Assembly (NCBI GenBank): GCA_013140805.1
Contig: JABFRW010000019.1
Span: 1-60,572 of the forward strand
Source of the DNA: Candidatus Eisenbacteria bacterium
Lineage (GTDB): Bacteria > Eisenbacteria > RBG-16-71-46
Reading direction: 5' to 3'
Length of the DNA: 60,572 nt
The position numbers and the translations under genes are program-made. Positions 24,103 to 36,613 of this stretch are shown here, in pieces. The notes under the pieces are model-generated. The model did not search any database and was not told where the DNA came from. It saw only the letters and a program-made list of their open reading frames with translations. The stretch's first letter is position 1, and every line of letters starts with the position of its first letter.

Positions 24103-24156
24103 GGCGGGATAGTACCGCGACATACGCGCTTTTCTCCCGACCGCCCCTCCCCTAAC

Positions 24157-25530
24157 ATGCGTGACATGACCCAAATCGAATCGAACACCTCGCCCTATCT
24201 CGCTGCCGCCCACGCCAACGATCGCGCCCACGTCTTCCACTCCTGGTCGGCCCAGGGAGCGCTCAATCCCACCGTGATCGCCGGAGCCAAGGGCTCCCGC
24301 ATGTGGGACGACAAGGGCAACACTTGGCTCGACTTCTCGAGCCAGCTCGTCAACGTGAACATCGGGCACCAGCACCCGAGGCTCGTCGCCGCGATCCAGG
24401 AACAGGCCGCGCGCATGTGCACGATCGCGCCGTTCCACGCCAACGACATGCGCAGTGAGGCCGCACGGCTGATCGCCGAGCTCGCCCCCGGTGATCTCGA
24501 CATGGTGTTCTTCACCAATGGAGGCACCGAAGCGATCGAGAACGCGGTGCGACTCGCGCGCGGACACACCGGACGCCACAAGCTCCTGTCGGCCTACCGG
24601 AGTTATCACGGCGCGACCGGCAACTCGATCATGCTGACCGGCGATCCGCGCCGCTGGGGCAATGAGCCGGGCGCCGCCGGGACCGTCAAGTTCTGGGGCC
24701 CGTATCTCTATCGCTCCGCGTTCCACGCCACGACGCCCGCGGAGGAATGCGATCGCGCACTCGAACACCTCGCGAACGTGCTGATGGTCGAGGGCGCCCA
24801 CACGGTGGCGGCGATCGTGCTCGAGAGCGTGGTCGGCACCAACGGCATTCTGGTTCCTCCCGATGGATATCTCGCCGGGGTGCGCGCGCTTTGCGATCAG
24901 CACGGCATCGTGATGATCTGCGATGAGGTCATGGCGGGCTTCGGACGCTGCGGCGAGTGGTTCGCAGTCGATCGCTGGAAGGTGACACCGGACCTCATCA
25001 CGTTCGCCAAGGGCTCGAACTCAGGCTACCTGCCGGTGGGTGGAGTGATCATCAGCCGAAAGATCGCCGAGACCTACCGGGACCGCGTCTTCCCCGGCGG
25101 CCTCACCTACTCGGGGCATCCGCTCGCGTGCGCATCGATCGTCGCGAGCATCGGCATCTTCAAGGACGAGAAGATCGTCGACAATGCGCGCAGGCTCGGC
25201 ACCGACGTGATCGGCCCGGAACTCGCGAAGATCGCGGTCAAGCATCCGAGTGTCGGTGAGGTCCGCGGGCTCGGAGTCTTCTGGGCCATCGAATTGGTGC
25301 GCGACCGCAAGACCCGGGCACCGCTGGTGCCGTTCAATGCCAGTGGCGCAGAGGCCAAACCGATGGTCGAGCTGATGGCCGCCTGCAAGGCTGGTGGCGT
25401 GTGGCCGTTCGCACACTTCAACCGCCTTCAGGTCACGCCACCCTGCACCACGACCGCGGACGAGGTACGCGAAGGACTCGCGGCGATCGACGTGGCGCTT
25501 GCGGTGGCGGATCGATACGCCGGCGAGTGA
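24157..25530 (+). CDS. Class III PLP aminotransferase
   Basis: A protein of about 457 aa with a full-length class III aminotransferase fold. Seen are SWSAQGALNP near the N-terminus, FFTNGGTEAIENAVRLAR (PLP phosphate loop), SYHGATG, the aspartate in MICDEVMAGFGR and the PLP lysine in ITFAKGSNSGYLPVGGV near residue 285. It is closest in style to omega-amino acid or taurine:pyruvate aminotransferases; the amino donor cannot be deduced. Two ATGs at 24157 and 24166 are possible. It is followed by a hairpin and is probably transcribed apart from the peptide cassette. Confidence 0.88.
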   Translation: MRDMTQIESNTSPYLAAAHANDRAHVFHSWSAQGALNPTVIAGAKGSRMWDDKGNTWLDFSSQLVNVNIGHQHPRLVAAIQEQAARMCTIAPFHANDMRSEAARLIAELAPGDLDMVFFTNGGTEAIENAVRLARGHTGRHKLLSAYRSYHGATGNSIMLTGDPRRWGNEPGAAGTVKFWGPYLYRSAFHATTPAEECDRALEHLANVLMVEGAHTVAAIVLESVVGTNGILVPPDGYLAGVRALCDQHGIVMICDEVMAGFGRCGEWFAVDRWKVTPDLITFAKGSNSGYLPVGGVIISRKIAETYRDRVFPGGLTYSGHPLACASIVASIGIFKDEKIVDNARRLGTDVIGPELAKIAVKHPSVGEVRGLGVFWAIELVRDRKTRAPLVPFNASGAEAKPMVELMAACKAGGVWPFAHFNRLQVTPPCTTTADEVREGLAAIDVALAVADRYAGE

Positions 25531-25756: not shown

Positions 25757-25828
25757 ATGTTGGTTCGTACCGGACTTCAGGCAGGTGCCGGAATTCAGAT
25801 CGACGGCAACGGCCAGCCCACCGGCTAG
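25757..25828 (+). CDS. 23-aa putative exported peptide precursor, copy 1
   Basis: A tiny ORF with GGAG 6 nt before its ATG. It encodes a 23-residue peptide beginning MLVRTGLQAG and continuing with GIQIDGNGQP near its end. It aligns without gaps with the next ORF: 12 of 23 positions are identical, including M1, V3, R4, G6, A9, G10, G12, I13, I15, D16, G19 and P21. The frame is open further upstream to a TTG at 25619, but alignment of the two copies favours the short form. Its position just before a C39-type exporter suggests a secreted peptide (bacteriocin or signal). A C39 cut after A9-G10 is conceivable but not proven. Confidence 0.6.
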   Translation: MLVRTGLQAGAGIQIDGNGQPTG

Positions 25829-25839
25829 AGGAGGAATCC

Positions 25840-25911
25840 ATGAAGGTTCGTTCAGGTGTCCGTGCCGGCTACGGCATTGCCATCGATCCCGATGGCGCGC
25901 CCGCCCGCTGA
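25840..25911 (+). CDS. 23-aa putative exported peptide precursor, copy 2
   Basis: The second tiny ORF, starting 11 nt after the stop of copy 1, has a consensus AGGAGG (25829-25834) 5 nt before its ATG. The peptide begins MKVRSGVRAG and includes GIAIDPDGAP. It has exactly the same length as copy 1 and shares 12 residues with it, while the variable positions are mostly conservative (T/S, L/V, Q/R, N/D). This pattern of constrained change supports real coding. No cysteine, serine/threonine cluster or double-glycine leader is present, so typical lanthipeptide or class II bacteriocin features are lacking. Confidence 0.65.
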   Translation: MKVRSGVRAGYGIAIDPDGAPAR

Positions 25912-26051
25912 CCCGCTGAAACCTCACCCGGCTCCCTGCAAGTGAGGGTCGACGAGGCACCAGGAGCGCGCGCGGTTCGAGTGTCTGAGCTGCGCGCGCT
26001 CTTCGTCGTCATGCGCCTTCCACCGTCGAGCCGCCTCCGAACTCGAGCCTC
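25912..26051. other. Spacer between peptide genes and exporter genes
   Basis: This 140-nt spacer has no credible ORF. CCTCAC (25922-25927) can pair with GTGAGG (25942-25947) to form a small hairpin 10 nt after the second peptide gene. Such a hairpin could act as a partial terminator that keeps exporter expression below peptide expression. The stem is only 6 bp and has no T-tract. Confidence 0.3.
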
Positions 26052-27227
26052 ATGCGCAGTGCGTTTCTTCAAACCCTGACCGCGCTCGACTCGGACCGCG
26101 GACGCTTCGCGGCGGCTCTCTTCGTGGCCGGCGCTGCAATTCTGGTCGGTTGGGTCTCGTGGGGCGTCTGGGGCGAGTTGCCGATTCAGGTCTTCTCACA
26201 GCGCGCACGCTTCGAGTCGAGCGACGGCGTCCAGGTGGTTCGCGCCGCGGCAGCGGGTCTGGTGGTGGAATCGCGCCTCACACCGTCCTCGCACTGGAAT
26301 CCCGGCGACACCCTCGTGCTGCTCGACGACTCCCCCGATCGAGAAGCGTGGGCGGCCGCTCGCACTCGGCTCGCGGCGCTGCAGCGCCGTCACGCCGCGA
26401 TCCGCCGTCAGTGTCAGGCCCTCCTCGCCAGCGCGACGTTCGCTCGATCGGTCGCGGTGAGCGACTCGACCGCGTCGCGCGCGCGTGGCAACGAGGCCGA
26501 AGTCATGGCGCGAAGCGCGGAGCGGGACGCCGGGCGCTCGGCGAGCCTGCTTCGCGAGGGCCTGGTCGCGACCGCCGCGCATGAGCACGCGATGCTCGAG
26601 GCCGAGCGTCTGCGCGCCGCCGCGCAGGCGGCACTGGCGGGTCATGCGCGGGGCATCGCCGAACAGCTTCGGGCCCGCGCGCTGGCCGAGGACGCCCTCG
26701 CGGGCGCGCAGGCGGATCTCGCCGAGCTGGAGGGCGAGCTGGCACAGGCGCAGGCGCTCGGCGCGGGAGCGCGCGCGCACCTGTCCCACCGTGCGATCCT
26801 GGCCTCGTGCCGTTGCCAGCCGGTGCGTGTCGCGGCACTTCACACCGGGAGCTACGTCTCGCAGGGCGATACGCTCGCGTGGCTCTCGACGGACGGACCG
26901 CCGAGCGCGCACGCCGACTTCGCGCCGACCGACGCCATCGGTCGGATCGCCATCGGTCAATCGGCGACGATTCGCGCGGCACACCTCGCGCGGTCCGGCG
27001 ATCGCAGCTGGCCCGCGCGAGTGCGCCACCTGGCTCCCGAGCCGCAGAACGGTTCGGTGCGTGTCGAGCTGTCGCTCGAAGCTTCACACCGTGCATCCCG
27101 TGAGTTTCCGTACGGACTACCCTTGATCGTCGAGGTCACGGTCGGAACCGGCTCACCGCTCGAGTTGCTTCTGCTCGGCGCGCGACAGCGGTCGCGGAGA
27201 GGCGGCGCGGGTCCGAGCACCCGGTGA
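26052..27227 (+). CDS. HlyD-type periplasmic adaptor for peptide export
   Basis: A membrane fusion protein of about 391 aa. It has one transmembrane helix near the N-terminus (residues about 20-40, AALFVAGAAILVGWVSWGVW), a biotinyl/lipoyl-like half motif (VVRAAAAGLVVESRL ... WNPGDTLVLLDD), a long alanine/arginine-rich alpha-helical hairpin (about 95-230), the second half motif (ILASCRCQPVRVAALHTGSYVSQGDTLAWLS) and a beta-barrel part (FAPTDAIGRIAIGQSATIR). It would link the inner-membrane ABC transporters to the outer membrane. Its stop overlaps the start of the next gene by 4 nt (GTGA), so they are coupled. Confidence 0.8.
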   Translation: MRSAFLQTLTALDSDRGRFAAALFVAGAAILVGWVSWGVWGELPIQVFSQRARFESSDGVQVVRAAAAGLVVESRLTPSSHWNPGDTLVLLDDSPDREAWAAARTRLAALQRRHAAIRRQCQALLASATFARSVAVSDSTASRARGNEAEVMARSAERDAGRSASLLREGLVATAAHEHAMLEAERLRAAAQAALAGHARGIAEQLRARALAEDALAGAQADLAELEGELAQAQALGAGARAHLSHRAILASCRCQPVRVAALHTGSYVSQGDTLAWLSTDGPPSAHADFAPTDAIGRIAIGQSATIRAAHLARSGDRSWPARVRHLAPEPQNGSVRVELSLEASHRASREFPYGLPLIVEVTVGTGSPLELLLLGARQRSRRGGAGPSTR

Positions 27228-29941
27228 CCCGCTCCGGAACGATCTCAACCGTGCCTCGACGTCGAATACGATCCGCACTGGCCGTCGAGGTGGTGCAGAC
27301 CTCGGCGATGGACTGCGGTCCCGCGGCGCTTCAGTGCCTGCTCGCAGGTCACGGGCTCCGGTCGAGCTATCACCGCCTGCGAGAGCAATGCCACACCGGC
27401 GTGGACGGCACCTCGATCGATGCGCTCGAAGTCATCGCCGTTCAAATGGGACTGGACGCAGAGCAGGTCATGGTGCCAACCGACCACCTGCTGCTGCGCT
27501 CGAGCCGCTGCCTCCCGGCGCTCGCCGTCACGCGACTGCACGGAGGCGCGACTCACTTCGTCGTCGTGTGGTCCGCGTTTGGCGACTGGGTTCAGGTCAT
27601 GGACCCGGCGATTGGTCGGCTGTGGATCCGCACCCGACGACTCCTCGCATCGCTCTACCAGCACGGGCACGAGGTCGACGCGAGCGCGTACCGCACCTGG
27701 TGCGGCGGCGAAGAGATGCAGTCCGCGCTCCGTGAACGCATGGAACACCTCGACGTCTCCCGTGCGGAGGCGAACCGACATCTGGAGACCGCGAGCGAAG
27801 ACTCCGGCTGGCGATCGTTCGCGCGTCTCGACGCCGGCCTGCGAGCGACCGCGTCGCTGGTGCGAGGCGGCGGCGCACGGCGAGGCTCCGAGGCCACCGC
27901 CGTCGCGCGCACACTGCTCGAATCACCCTCGCCGGGCGCGGCGTGGGACGCCCTCATACCACGCGAGTACTGGTCGGTTCGCCCGGCCGCGACGACGGAC
28001 TCCGACTCGCTCGTGCTGCGCGGCTGCGTGCTGCTCCGGACGCCGAACGGCCGGCGTTCCGTACAGGCCGAAACGGCACAGATCGCGGACGACGCGAACT
28101 CGACCACTTCGGCCGCGGGATTGCGAGGCGACACGCGTGACCCGTTCGCCCGCACACTCTTGAGCCTCATCCTCCCCACGCCCTTGCGCGTGACGGCACT
28201 GCTCGGCGCTTCGATCCTCCTCGCGACCCTCGGCACGCTCATGCTCGCGGTGGTTCTGCGAGCGCTCGCGGGCGTCGGCCCGGCATCTCCCGATGAGGGA
28301 GTTCGATTCGCCATGGTCCTCTCGCTGCTGGTTCTCGCCCTGGCACTCACGCTCCTCGAGGTGCCGCTCGGCCTCGAGGCTCATCGACTCGGCCGTCGCC
28401 TCGAGGCTCGCCTCCGGTGTTCGATCCTCGACCACCTGCCGTGGTCGCGCAGTCGCTATCTCTCGAGCCTGCCGAGCTCGGACATCGCCGAACGTGCGCA
28501 CGCACTCCACGCCCTGCATGCGATGCCTCCGATGTTCGTCGCGATGGTGCGAGCCGCCTGCGAGTGGATGGCGATGGCGATCGGCGCGGTCACGCTGGTT
28601 CCCGCGCTGCTGCCGGCGGTCGGCGTGTCGCTGGCCCTCTCGCTCCCCATCGCGCTGCTGTCGAGATCGATTCTCGCCGAGCAGGACATGCGGTCCCGGG
28701 TGTTCTCGGGAGCCCTGACGCGCCTGCACCTCGACGCGCTGCTCGGCGCGGTTCCGATTCGTGCCAACGGCGCCGCATCGACGCTTCGAAGGCAGCACTC
28801 CCGGCTGCTCGCCGAATGGGGTCGGGCAATGCTGGCGGCAGCGAGCAATGGCCTCGTGACCTCGCTGCTGCTGATGCTGATCGCGGTCGGGACGCTTGGG
28901 ATTCTCGGACTCCCCCGACTGACTGCCGACGCACCATCGGGTGCTGTGCTGCTCGCCGTGTTCTGGACTCTGCGGCTGCCCTGGCTGGCTCAACGCATCG
29001 ATTCGATCGGCCGCGACCTGCTCGCAAGACGCAACATCGCACAGCGAGCGATGGAGCTCGCAATCGTCGCCGACGATCCGCACGCGGGTGATCCGGCGGA
29101 CGCATCGGAGTCGATCGCCGAACCGGACGTCGGCGTCTCGTTTCGGGCGGAGGCAGCCGAGATCTCACGCGGTGGACGCATCGTCCTGCGCGATCTGAGC
29201 TTCGAGATCCCGGGCGGTTGTCGCGCGGCGATCGTCGGTCCGTCGGGCGGCGGAAAGTCCACGCTGGTTGCATGGATGCTGGGCTGGCACGCCACGACCG
29301 CCGGGCGATTGTGGGTCGACGGACGAGCGGCCCACCCCGAGTCTTTCCGCGGACTGCGGGCCCAAACGGCATGGGCAGAGTCGGAGACTCGCGTCTGGAG
29401 TGACTCGCTCGAGCAGAATCTGAACTATGGCCTCGAGCCCGGCGCGACCCCTCGCGCCCGTGAGTCTCTCGTTCCGAGCGAATTGGCTGAGCTCGCGCGT
29501 TCGCTTCCTTCCGGAATGCAGGCGGGACTCGGTGACGGCGGCGGCCGACTGTCGCACGGTGAGGCGCAACGAGTGCGGTTCGGCCGCGCGTATGGACGTC
29601 GCACGGCACGCGTGGTCATCCTCGACGAAGCGTTCTCCGGCCTCGATCGGGAGCAACGCCGCCGTCTGAGCGCAGTCGCTCGCGAGCGCTGGCCGAGCGC
29701 CACCGTGGTCTGCGTGACGCACGACCTCCTCGACGCACTCCACTTCGATCGGGTGATGGTGGTGGTCGACGGCACGATCGTCGAGAACGGTGAGCCGCCC
29801 GCACTCGCTGCATCTGAAGCGTCTCAGTTCGCGCGCCTGCTGGCGGAGGAGCGCTCCGCGCTCGAACTGCTGGACTCGAAGCGATGGCGCCGACTGGATC
29901 TCGACGCCGGACGACTGCATTCGCGTCACGACGCTCCATGA
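27224..29941 (+). CDS. Peptidase-containing ABC transporter (C39 PCAT)
   Basis: A 905-aa exporter starting with GTG. Residues 20-150 are a C39 peptidase with all expected residues: Q25 (oxyanion), C31 in SAMDCGPAAL, H111 in THFVVV and D127 in VMDPAIG. A long hydrophilic segment of about 150 residues separates it from the six-helix membrane domain (about 310-590). The ATPase domain has Walker A GPSGGGKST (about residue 671), a signature variant LSHGEAQR and Walker B VVILDEAFSGLD. The family cuts leader peptides and pumps the product out. It probably handles the two 23-residue peptides. It overlaps both neighbours by 4 nt. Confidence 0.88.
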   Translation: MTRSGTISTVPRRRIRSALAVEVVQTSAMDCGPAALQCLLAGHGLRSSYHRLREQCHTGVDGTSIDALEVIAVQMGLDAEQVMVPTDHLLLRSSRCLPALAVTRLHGGATHFVVVWSAFGDWVQVMDPAIGRLWIRTRRLLASLYQHGHEVDASAYRTWCGGEEMQSALRERMEHLDVSRAEANRHLETASEDSGWRSFARLDAGLRATASLVRGGGARRGSEATAVARTLLESPSPGAAWDALIPREYWSVRPAATTDSDSLVLRGCVLLRTPNGRRSVQAETAQIADDANSTTSAAGLRGDTRDPFARTLLSLILPTPLRVTALLGASILLATLGTLMLAVVLRALAGVGPASPDEGVRFAMVLSLLVLALALTLLEVPLGLEAHRLGRRLEARLRCSILDHLPWSRSRYLSSLPSSDIAERAHALHALHAMPPMFVAMVRAACEWMAMAIGAVTLVPALLPAVGVSLALSLPIALLSRSILAEQDMRSRVFSGALTRLHLDALLGAVPIRANGAASTLRRQHSRLLAEWGRAMLAAASNGLVTSLLLMLIAVGTLGILGLPRLTADAPSGAVLLAVFWTLRLPWLAQRIDSIGRDLLARRNIAQRAMELAIVADDPHAGDPADASESIAEPDVGVSFRAEAAEISRGGRIVLRDLSFEIPGGCRAAIVGPSGGGKSTLVAWMLGWHATTAGRLWVDGRAAHPESFRGLRAQTAWAESETRVWSDSLEQNLNYGLEPGATPRARESLVPSELAELARSLPSGMQAGLGDGGGRLSHGEAQRVRFGRAYGRRTARVVILDEAFSGLDREQRRRLSAVARERWPSATVVCVTHDLLDALHFDRVMVVVDGTIVENGEPPALAASEASQFARLLAEERSALELLDSKRWRRLDLDAGRLHSRHDAP

Positions 29942-32067
29942 CGCAGCCCCGCCTCGCTCCAACCGCATGGACGCCCGACAGGCTGTGCGGCGCATTGGAG
30001 CGGCTCGCCGGCTCGAGCGGCAACCGCGATCGAGTCGCAGCGCCGCAGCGAGAACTCCTGACCGCGGCGCTCTCGGGTTCGCTCGAGCTCGCGGACCGTG
30101 CGATCGCAAGTGAGTGCGCTCGACTCGGCCTCGAGTGCGAAACCGTCTCGATGACGCGGGAGGATCTCGAAACCCATCTGCACCATCACGCTCCGCTGAT
30201 CGTGCGTGTTCACGACGAAGCACCGCCGGGCTATGCAGTGATCGAAGGCGCTCGCTGGGGCCAGATTCGAGTGGCGTGCCCCGATGGCTCGACTCGAAGC
30301 GTGTCGATTCGCGATTGGATCGCGCGACTCCCGGTTCCGGACCGAGTGCGGCGCGAAGTCGACCAGCTGATCGAACGCTCGCGGATCGCCCCGCGTCGAC
30401 GCGCGATCGCTGCGGCTCAGCTCGAGAAGGAACGTCTGGCAGGACACCGATGTGCGACGGGCTGGAGCCTGCATCGACGCAGCGGCGCTCCGCTCACGAC
30501 CGCCCTGTCGGAGGATGGCGTCTTCGCGCATGCCCTCTGGAGTCTGGGATTCAGTCTGCTCGCGCGGGCCTTGTCGATCGGCGGATGGGTCGTGCTGTTC
30601 GATGCACTCACGGATCGCAACCTCACCGGCAGTGTGATGTTCGCGTGGGTGCTCCTGGTCGCGACCGGCGAGTTCGCGCAAATGACGGCGGGCTGGTTCC
30701 AGTCCCACGGATCCGTGCGCCTCGGAGCGTTGCTCCGGGATCGGATGCTGCTCGGCGCCACGCGTCTCGGACTGGATGCCGTTCGGATCCGTGGCGCGGG
30801 ACACTGGCTCGGCATCGTGCTCGAGTCGCACGGCTTCGAGAGCCACACGATCGGCGGCGTATTCGGTGGCGCGCTGACATCGGTCGAGCTCGCGGCTGCA
30901 ATCGCCGTGCTGCTGGCGGCCCCGCATACGACCGGGCTCGCGTGGCTGTTGATGGCGTGGTGCGTCGCCTCGATCGCACTGCATGTGTGGCGGCTCCCGC
31001 GCTGGCGAGCCTGGTTCCGAACGCGACAGCGACTCAGCCGGCGGATGGTGGAAGGCATGCTCGGCCACCGCACACGCGCGATGCAGGAGGCACCCGGGGC
31101 GCCCGATCACGAACTGGACGCTGCAGCGGAGCGACACCTTCGAGTGTCCGGCGAGTTGGACCGCTGGCAGGTGTGGATCGCGGTGCTCGCCCCACGCGGC
31201 TGGCTGGTGGCGGGATTCGCGCTTCTGCTCACCGACGCTTCGTGGCGCGAAACCGTGGCCGGAACTTCATGGATGACCGTCGCGGGTCTGTTGCTCGGCT
31301 ACGGCGCGCTGGAACGGCTGACGACTGCGTGTTCGAGCCTGTCGAATGCGGCCGCCGCCCTCGACTCGATCCGACCGCTGCTCCGCGCCGCGCGCCGCGC
31401 GAATCGAGCGACGCGACCCGAAGCGCCGATCGAACCGGAGTGGCTGCCGACCGGCGAGCCGGTCATCGAGTGTGTCGCGATCGGCTATCGCCACCGCGGC
31501 CGGCTGAACGAGGTGTTGCGCGGATGCAGTCTCGAGATCGGGCCCGGCGCGCGCGTGTCGATTGACGGTGCTTCGGCATGCGGTAAGTCAACCCTCGCCG
31601 GAATACTCGCCGGAATTCGTATCGCTCGTTCCGGCCAGGTGCGAATCGGGGGGCGTGACGCGCGTTCGATTCCGGAGCGGGATCGAGTGCGGCACCTGTC
31701 ACTGGCCCCTCAGCCGAGCGAAAACCACGTGTTCTCGGACACCCTCGCTTTCAACCTGTTGCTCGGACGCCCGTGGCCGCATCGAGCGGAGGACTACGAG
31801 GACGCGCGGCTCGTCTGCGAAGAGCTCGGCCTGGGCTCGCTGATTCGACGAATGCCCGCAGGGCTGCACCAGCAGGTCGGCGAGGTCGGATGGCAGCTCT
31901 CGCAGGGCGAGTCCCATCGGGTGTTCATCGCTCGCGCGATGCTGCAGCGCTCGCGGGTCGTGATCCTGGACGAGGGGCTCGGAGGCCTGGATCCCGCCAG
32001 CAGGTCCCGGTGCCTCGGCATGCTCGATCGCAGGCCCGAAGCGGTGGTGCTCACTTCGGTCCGCTAA
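29938..32067 (+). CDS. Second peptide-export ABC transporter with inactive C39-like domain
   Basis: A 709-aa permease/ATPase whose ATG overlaps the preceding stop (ATGA). The first 180 residues resemble a C39-like fold: ECARLGLECETVSMTREDLETHL, then LIVRVHDEAPPGYAVIEG, where the catalytic histidine position is tyrosine. The catalytic cysteine motif DCG is absent, so it should not cut peptides. A membrane domain spans about 190-480. The ATPase has Walker A GASACGKST (about residue 544), signature LSQGESHR and Walker B VVILDEGLGGLD. Pairing of a C39-active and a C39-dead ABC protein with HlyD is the layout of NHLM-type exporters. Confidence 0.82.
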   Translation: MTQPRLAPTAWTPDRLCGALERLAGSSGNRDRVAAPQRELLTAALSGSLELADRAIASECARLGLECETVSMTREDLETHLHHHAPLIVRVHDEAPPGYAVIEGARWGQIRVACPDGSTRSVSIRDWIARLPVPDRVRREVDQLIERSRIAPRRRAIAAAQLEKERLAGHRCATGWSLHRRSGAPLTTALSEDGVFAHALWSLGFSLLARALSIGGWVVLFDALTDRNLTGSVMFAWVLLVATGEFAQMTAGWFQSHGSVRLGALLRDRMLLGATRLGLDAVRIRGAGHWLGIVLESHGFESHTIGGVFGGALTSVELAAAIAVLLAAPHTTGLAWLLMAWCVASIALHVWRLPRWRAWFRTRQRLSRRMVEGMLGHRTRAMQEAPGAPDHELDAAAERHLRVSGELDRWQVWIAVLAPRGWLVAGFALLLTDASWRETVAGTSWMTVAGLLLGYGALERLTTACSSLSNAAAALDSIRPLLRAARRANRATRPEAPIEPEWLPTGEPVIECVAIGYRHRGRLNEVLRGCSLEIGPGARVSIDGASACGKSTLAGILAGIRIARSGQVRIGGRDARSIPERDRVRHLSLAPQPSENHVFSDTLAFNLLLGRPWPHRAEDYEDARLVCEELGLGSLIRRMPAGLHQQVGEVGWQLSQGESHRVFIARAMLQRSRVVILDEGLGGLDPASRSRCLGMLDRRPEAVVLTSVR

Positions 32068-35591: not shown

Positions 35592-36071
35592 TTAAGGCCG
35601 CTTGCGCGCCGCAGCCGTCACGATCTCGTCGAGCGTCGCGCGATAGAGCGAGTCGCGTGTGCCCGCGCCGTTCAGCGCACGCTCGGCGAGGGACCGCGCC
35701 TCATCCAGATTGCGCCGCTGCCTGAGCAACGCAATGGCGAGATTGTTCATGGCGTCGGCATTGGTCGTCGAGTCTCGCAGCGCGCGACGATAGGCATTCT
35801 CGGCCCGTCGCCATCTCCCGCGTGCGGCCTCGACATTGCCAAGGTTCACCCGCGTTCTCGCATCGCCGGAATCCAATCGGAGCGCCCGATGGTACTCGCG
35901 CGCGGCCAGCTCCAGCTCGCCCTGCGTCTCATAGACCACTCCGAGATCGCTGTGCTCGCTCGCCGAGAGCGGATCGTGAAGGATCACGAAGTGCGCGCAA
36001 CCCGAGAGCGACGGAACCACGAGGAGCGTCGCGGCGAGGATTCCGAACCACGGCCCGCCGCCGCGCTTCAA
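35592..36071 (-). CDS. TPR lipoprotein, partner of the PA2778-like peptidase
   Basis: A protein of about 159 aa. A TTG at 36071 is a good start: GGAGG lies 5 nt upstream, and the N-terminus then forms a lipoprotein signal (ILAATLLVVPSLSGC). Three TPR units follow (SDLGVVYETQGELELAAREYHRALRLD, RVNLGNVEAARGRWRRAENAYRRALRD, MNNLAIALLRQRRNLDEARSLAERAL). The start overlaps the peptidase stop by 4 nt (TTGA). In Pseudomonas PA2778 a C39-like peptidase and TPRs are one chain; here they are two coupled genes. Confidence 0.65.
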   Translation of the reverse strand: MKRGGGPWFGILAATLLVVPSLSGCAHFVILHDPLSASEHSDLGVVYETQGELELAAREYHRALRLDSGDARTRVNLGNVEAARGRWRRAENAYRRALRDSTTNADAMNNLAIALLRQRRNLDEARSLAERALNGAGTRDSLYRATLDEIVTAAARKRP

Positions 36072-36613
36072 GGGAGCCTCCGGCGGACCAGCAGCGCTCG
36101 TGAACCCGCGGTCCGCCAGCGCTTCGTCAGCTCGTCGCGGCTCATGACGCGCGGAGTGGCGCGTCCGTCGTTGAGGGTGAATTCGTCGCGCGCAGCGTCC
36201 CAGCGCGTCACCACGCCGAAGTGCGGCACCGTCAGCGGCGCCCGGCCGTTCTGATAGAGCAGAATCGGCGGCACTCCGGCGACGAGTGCCGCGACCAGTG
36301 AATCCGCCGACAGTGCCACGACCTCCGCATCGAATCCGGCGCGCCGTGCGGCCGCGGCGAGGTCGGTGATGAGGGATCCGCGCAGAGTCGGATCGTAGGC
36401 GAGCTCGCCTTCGCGGAGCGCCGCCGAGGCGGCAGCGTAGTACCGCAGCACCATTTCGAGAGCAGCTTGCCCGCAACGCTCGCGCGTCTGTCGAACGAGC
36501 GGGACCGGGAGTTCGAGCGGCGGTGTCGTGATCGGCGGCACCGGTGACGCGATGCCGATCGGCACGGGGCCCAGCGAGAGCGCCATCGCGAGCACGACGG
36601 CCATCCGAGTCAT
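36068..36613 (-). CDS. PA2778-type C39-like cysteine peptidase
   Basis: A 181-aa exported protein with a signal peptide (VVLAMALSLGPVPIGIA). The C39-like residues are Q42 and C47 (RQTRERCGQAALEMVL), H131 (TVPHFGVVTRWD) and an aspartate or asparagine in EFTLNDGRATP, consistent with a functional cysteine peptidase of the PA2778 family. The ATG lies directly after the stop of the hybrid kinase gene (TAG then ATG), so it is likely translated by coupling from that mRNA. Its substrate is unknown. Confidence 0.75.
   Translation of the reverse strand: MTRMAVVLAMALSLGPVPIGIASPVPPITTPPLELPVPLVRQTRERCGQAALEMVLRYYAAASAALREGELAYDPTLRGSLITDLAAAARRAGFDAEVVALSADSLVAALVAGVPPILLYQNGRAPLTVPHFGVVTRWDAARDEFTLNDGRATPRVMSRDELTKRWRTAGSRALLVRRRLP

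Follow-up and report, generated by a model that had tools for sequence, protein, structure and literature searches.

Exporters with a C39 peptidase domain bind their substrate by its leader, cleave behind a pair of small residues, and export the remainder (PMC6959990, PMC10885120). In PCAT1 and LahT, the C39 domain makes use of the hydrophobic leader residues L(-12)/L(-7), and the listed cleavage sites are GG, GA, and GS (PMC6959990, PMC10885120). The leader of MccV has 15 residues (PMC10231218) and is the shortest described in the papers cited here. NHLM/NHLP-type microcin loci combine HlyD, a C39-ABC protein, and an ABC protein without an active peptidase (PMC2887384).

We analyzed a window of 60,572 nucleotides from a Candidatus Eisenbacteria bacterium, one contig of a 3.8-Mb draft genome (67% G+C). 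An earlier note on this DNA had proposed a new peptide-export system with two tiny precursors. We found support for the peptide assignment; that the peptides are exported we infer, and the exporter is not exclusive to such peptides, as its relative in Piscinibacter indicates.

Exporter genes and candidate precursor pair in the window

The genes lie on the plus strand in the order pep1, pep2, the HlyD-like gene, ABC1, and ABC2 (Table 1). The earlier note described pep1 and pep2 as related 23-codon ORFs, and they are identical at 12 of 23 residues (11 of 22 without Met), the closest match among all adjacent short-ORF pairs in the window. In 40 simulated 60-kb sequences, the best adjacent short-ORF pair of each had 6 to 9 identities without Met, versus the 11 of pep1/pep2, a level never reached. 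The earlier observation holds with one correction, to the position of the second ORF, which is 25840-25911. The Shine-Dalgarno sequence of pep2 is AGGAGG, 5 nt 5' of the ATG; that of pep1, GGAG, is weaker. Neither peptide matched an NCBIfam model at E values up to 10. Between pep2 and the HlyD gene, the RNA is predicted to form a hairpin (-38.3 kcal/mol and z -5.2 for positions 25955-26012), for which an Rfam search gave no match. The hairpin is a possible attenuator or mRNA stabilizer and could give precursors and exporter separate expression levels.

Table 1. Positions of the features in the window and of the peptide ORFs in genomes G379 and G081
Feature	Position	Strand	Size	Remarks
Class III aminotransferase	24142-25530	+		Directly 5' of the peptides
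pep1	25757..25828	+	23 codons + stop	Full peptide MLVRTGLQAGAGIQIDGNGQPTG; MLVRTGLQAG, proposed cleavage, AGIQIDGNGQPTG
pep2	25840..25911	+	23 codons + stop	Full peptide MKVRSGVRAGYGIAIDPDGAPAR; MKVRSGVRAG, proposed cleavage, YGIAIDPDGAPAR
RNA hairpin	25962..26003	+	18 bp	No U tract
HlyD-like membrane fusion (adaptor) protein	26052..27227	+	391 aa
ABC1, C39 peptidase-ABC exporter	27224..29941	+	905 aa
ABC2, second ABC exporter	29938..32067	+	709 aa	Catalytically dead C39-like N-terminus
Second C39-family peptidase gene and TPR-protein ORF	36068-36613, 35592-36476	-		Peptidase without ABC domain; 37.6 bits
G379 ORF MVVKTGVKAGGNKPAKN	Between ABC1 and ABC2	Opposite	17 codons	AGGAG site; preceded by GAGGAGAGACAA
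G379 ORFs MKVQTGIKAGLSGHLSGAPTSPPPSHGPSPH, MKVQTGIKAGEPGSTQGSRTVNPSTAPRH	Another contig, side by side		29-31 aa
G081 tandem array of six ORFs	L035:9360-10552 (G081:C170)		14-28 aa	MKVKTDVHAGRTHVKIA, MKVKTDVKAGFIKF, MKVKTDIRAGDLPWLR, MKVKTDVRAGDLPMF, MKVKTDVHAGRTHVKITSSSPYGPSSPY, MKVKTDVRAGMKLPT

The three large genes had been noted as HlyD, a C39-active ABC protein, and a C39-dead ABC protein, in that order and overlapping. This reading holds: the HlyD/ABC1 overlap is GTGA, and the ABC1/ABC2 overlap is ATGA. The HlyD-like protein scored 20.6 bits against Pfam HlyD_3, just under the cut-off of 22.2, and matched HlyD-type NCBIfam models below their cut-offs. It is 28.5% identical to a Piscinibacter HlyD (described below) that passes Pfam HlyD_3. 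The locus thus has the ABC protein and HlyD-type adaptor by which type I secretion is recognized. ABC1 matched Pfam Peptidase_C39 with 71.2 bits, has an ABC domain, and carries the triad Cys31/His111/Asp127, which is invariant in four orthologues. This is the PCAT make-up, in which a C39 peptidase with a Cys-His-Asp triad forms the N-terminus of an ABC exporter. About 150 residues between the C39 domain and the transmembrane part of ABC1 match no Pfam family.

In the window's ABC2, we found no Pfam match to Peptidase_C39, and its N-terminus has no catalytic cysteine. In one orthologue of ABC2 (L018), part of C39 is matched at a score barely above threshold; the label "C39-dead" is accordingly right for ABC2. 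The C-terminus of ABC2 is the H-loop, and the window copy has no H-loop His (SVR versus AHR/AHP in three relatives). AlphaFold models made from three sequences were of low quality (pLDDT 39 for ABC1 and 54 for ABC2).

The gene set is that of an NHLM/NHLP-type microcin exporter, but we consider it hardly credible that the locus is one with a distant precursor. HlyD scored 31.9 against TIGR03794 (cut-off, 156.2), ABC1 116.6 against TIGR03796 (853.3), and ABC2 81.3 against TIGR03797 (709.4). The earlier note had set the locus apart from the NHLM type, and all three proteins miss the curated cut-offs by wide margins, as do the exporter orthologues. None of the peptides has an NHLP or Nif11 leader. 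A conventional leader-bearing precursor would have spoken against the peptide assignment of the earlier note; we found no conventional double-glycine ORF in the window.

No outer membrane channel gene was seen next to the window genes, and we recognized no gene for immunity, a receptor, or a regulator. The aminotransferase upstream of the peptides matched PRK06062 with 745.8 bits, far better than the daptide aminotransferase, and was rejected as a pathway member or daptide enzyme. The second C39-family peptidase gene has an apparent signal peptide and adjoins a TPR-protein ORF in another frame. It is probably unrelated to the exporter.

Relatives of the exporter

We found orthologues of ABC1 and ABC2 with 30 to 37% identity in three distant genomes, namely on a Piscinibacter plasmid and in two Gammaproteobacteria, G081 and G379; the alignments cover most or all of each protein. 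The plasmid, NZ_CP136338.1 of Piscinibacter gummiphilus, was found by tblastn of plasmids and has HlyD, ABC1, and ABC2 in the same order around the record start (L009/L011). Its ABC1 is 36% identical over 892 aa, and its ABC2 is 33% identical over 540 aa. G081 and G379 were the only exporter-positive genomes in a profile search of 369 gammaproteobacterial genomes. This set is the class of a betaproteobacterial locus, which we take to be Gammaproteobacteria in GTDB. In both genomes, ABC2 adjoins ABC1. In G379, an outer membrane efflux (OEP) gene adjoins the exporter, and the HlyD-like ORF, at 197 aa, is short and only weakly similar. In G081, no HlyD was seen on the exporter contig, which starts 396 bp before ABC1.

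Among the 47 genomes of the window's phylum, the exporter was found in the window's genome and in none of the other 46. A genome-contig scan with ABC1 gave generic ABC matches only. At E 1e-80, there was no exporter in 338 genomes (the phylum of a Prosthecobacter locus) or 337 genomes (the class of a Sphingomonas locus), samples in which two candidates per genome were scored, no positive control gave a signal, and misses are possible.

The exporter on the Piscinibacter plasmid adjoins genes annotated as DUF692 (MNIO), TfuA-like, MoeB, MoaD/ThiS, and carbamoyltransferase. A 57-aa hypothetical ORF in this cluster ends LKAKVNVKLGPIPFIAGLSNKARQKPW, contains K-V-N-V-K-L-G, and is a candidate precursor. 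The locus looks like an undescribed modified-peptide cluster. We found no tiny leader-type ORF on the searched plasmid, which indicates that exporters of this family are not confined to the peptides described here.

This neighborhood could mean that the peptides are RiPP precursors modified by enzymes that are encoded elsewhere in the genome and that the exporter is a RiPP exporter. C39 exporters with many leader-sharing precursors are indeed known from RiPP clusters (PMC10885120). In agreement with the earlier note, however, no modifying enzyme was recognized among the neighboring window genes scanned with Pfam. The neighbors of the peptide arrays in G081 and G379 are ordinary genes (P-type ATPase, O-methyltransferase, FliF, and UDG), and the peptide tails are very short, with no Cys and no common modifiable residue. 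We therefore regard RiPP precursors as unlikely.

A peptide family with a fixed start and variable ends

The earlier note suggested looking for matching short ORFs in genomes with the same exporter pair, and we found them in two independent genomes with the motif V-(K/R/Q)-(T/S)-(G/D)-x-x-A-G. One ORF of G379 lies within its exporter locus. The side-by-side pair of G379 and the row of G081 were found with a profile of three peptides, run on the exporter-positive genomes. The nine ORFs of G081 and G379 read M-x-V-(K/Q)-T-(G/D)-(V/I)-(K/R/H)-A-G and continue in variable tails. With the window pair, the signal of the 11 members is M-x-V-(K/R/Q)-(T/S)-(G/D)-(V/I/L)-(K/R/H/Q)-A-G. The tails have 4 to 21 residues. 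This family of 14- to 31-residue peptides with a fixed ten-residue start and variable ends is previously undescribed, and we found no papers with its motif strings in the literature. Of the pattern that the earlier note had read from the window pair, the first ten residues are a feature of the family; I-D-x-x-G-x-P is common to pep1 and pep2 only and is probably part of the core. When the fetched loci were given a graded leader score, all 11 members had 10/10 and everything else had at most 8.

The array of G081 lies on a different contig from the exporter, with no genes between the copies. Both the upstream sequences and the intergenic elements (GCAGGTTACAAACCTGC) are repeated, which suggests expansion by duplication. 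The exporter contig of G081 ends ...AGGAGAACGAGTATGA, much like the start of a tiny ORF, and a further peptide copy may begin there.

The repeated sequence 5' of the ATG, seen in both G081 and G379, and the strong hairpin 3' of pep2 would also fit short ORFs that are regulatory upstream ORFs or noncoding repeats, with an exporter that carries another substrate. In contrast, each of the 11 peptide ORFs is preceded by a Shine-Dalgarno match of 4 nt or more, 5 to 7 nt from the ATG. Pairwise comparison of the six G081 copies over the ten codons that they share gave 54 codon differences, of which 38 are synonymous; the 16 nonsynonymous differences are confined to codons 7 and 8. This bias argues for translation and for selection on the protein; the peptide N-terminus is under purifying selection. 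The gene-free array of G081 and the restriction of the peptides to exporter-positive genomes (see below) also speak against upstream ORFs or repeats, which we judge to be very improbable.

Per-position entropy is 0 to 1.8 bits at positions 1 to 10, versus 2.6 to 3.1 bits at positions 11 to 14. With conservation at the first ten positions and an unconstrained tail, the decapeptide itself might be the active product and the tail a spacer or a part that is removed. We consider this very improbable. C39 substrates typically have such a layout of leader and core, with a conserved N-terminus that meets a variable tail at a pair of small residues, and the related tail pairs in G081 (RTHVKI twice and DLP twice) suggest that the tail is constrained. 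PlcR/PapR-like signaling, considered because of the DLP-containing tails, was rejected, as the likeness is superficial and no regulator was seen. A type I toxin was also rejected, since the peptides are not hydrophobic.

We examined linkage to the exporter with a degenerate DNA pattern of the leader over the same 369 gammaproteobacterial genomes. The pattern matched six times in G081, three times in G379, and once elsewhere; a reversed control pattern gave two matches. The single match elsewhere is an 11-codon ORF without a Shine-Dalgarno sequence, and the only genomes of the 369 with credible peptides are the two with the exporter. The pattern was built from exporter-positive genomes and is a fair test of exporter-negative ones only, and these match it at about the chance rate. 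In the window's phylum, it matched twice in the window and once in G027, where a long PPDK-like frame begins. Among 43 genomes of G081's order, it matched in G081 only. A match in the window's own genome (L003) falls among unrelated genes and was attributed to chance. When plasmids and phages were searched with the peptides, the matches were weak only, e.g., in Aeromonas at E 8, unannotated. On viral contig IMGVR_UViG_3300028388_004553, a 20-codon ORF (MKVRTNVKAGGMSRCFERLE; L050:9073-9135) overlaps the end of a phage tape-measure frame. Its leader motif fits, but we did not count it because we estimate that about one chance match is expected. Two further viral scans gave no match.

Peptide and exporter occur together in three genomes only, a small sample, and we consider it likely that they are linked. 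As the peptides are found only in exporter-positive genomes among those searched, they probably form a minimal peptide secretion system with the exporter.

Proposed mechanism and known systems

Three features fit the mode of C39 exporters: a constant peptide start that ends in Ala-Gly, variable tails, and the intact triad of ABC1. We propose, as a likely though not assured mechanism, that the locus encodes a compact type I module by which very short ribosomal peptides are secreted. The ten-residue N-terminal signal would be bound by the C39 domain of ABC1 and cut off after Ala-Gly, and ABC1 and ABC2, probably as a heterodimer, would export the 4- to 21-residue tail together with the HlyD adaptor. 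The cleavage site, the ABC1/ABC2 pairing, export, and a role of the tails as signals or inhibitors are what we infer from the genes and peptides. The locus can be explained without any peptide modification.

PCAT leaders are recognized by hydrophobic residues at -4, -7, and -12 and a GG, GA, or GS cut. The family leader fits at -4 (V/I/L), has K/R/Q at -7, is too short for -12, and ends in Ala-Gly. The C39 domain may read a different signal, perhaps helped by the dead C39 of ABC2 or the extra segment of ABC1; alternatively, cleavage might occur by other means.

We suggest tentatively, at somewhat less than even odds, that this is a Gram-negative system that exports diversified oligopeptides of about 4 to 20 residues as extracellular signals or inhibitors, from multigene minimal precursors (down to 14 codons) with a ten-residue signal, through a two-protein C39 exporter. 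If so, its secretion signal would be shorter than that of MccV, and C39 domains could read substrates without the helix contacts of known structures. Genes of 14 to 31 codons are easily missed by gene callers, and such peptides would go unannotated. The multicopy tails supply ready candidates for signals or inhibitors, and more such peptides could be sought with the exporter pair as a genomic marker.

Among known systems, NHLM/NHLP loci (TIGR03794, TIGR03796, and TIGR03797; PMC2887384) likewise place HlyD, a C39-ABC protein, and a peptidase-inactive ABC protein side by side and have several precursors with a common N-terminus. They differ in that the window proteins fall far below the family cut-offs, no modifying enzyme was recognized among the neighboring window genes scanned, and NHLM/NHLP leaders exceed 70 residues, whereas whole precursors here have 14 to 31. 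PCATs (PCAT1, ComA, LahT, and CvaB) share the N-terminal C39 with its triad on an ABC exporter, and the LahT cluster (PMC10885120) shares a conserved leader with diverse cores. PCATs have about 710 to 730 aa, whereas ABC1 has about 150 extra residues after the C39 domain and a partner, ABC2, and here the ten-residue leader has no hydrophobic -7/-12 residues. The MccV system (CvaA/CvaB/TolC) also has a C39-ABC protein and an HlyD-type adaptor, and its small peptide likewise carries an N-terminal signal that is short; an outer membrane efflux gene lies beside the exporter in G379. In contrast, MccV has a 15-residue leader on a 103-aa precursor and one ABC protein, whereas the family described here has a ten-residue leader, far smaller precursors, two ABC proteins, and no recognized immunity gene.
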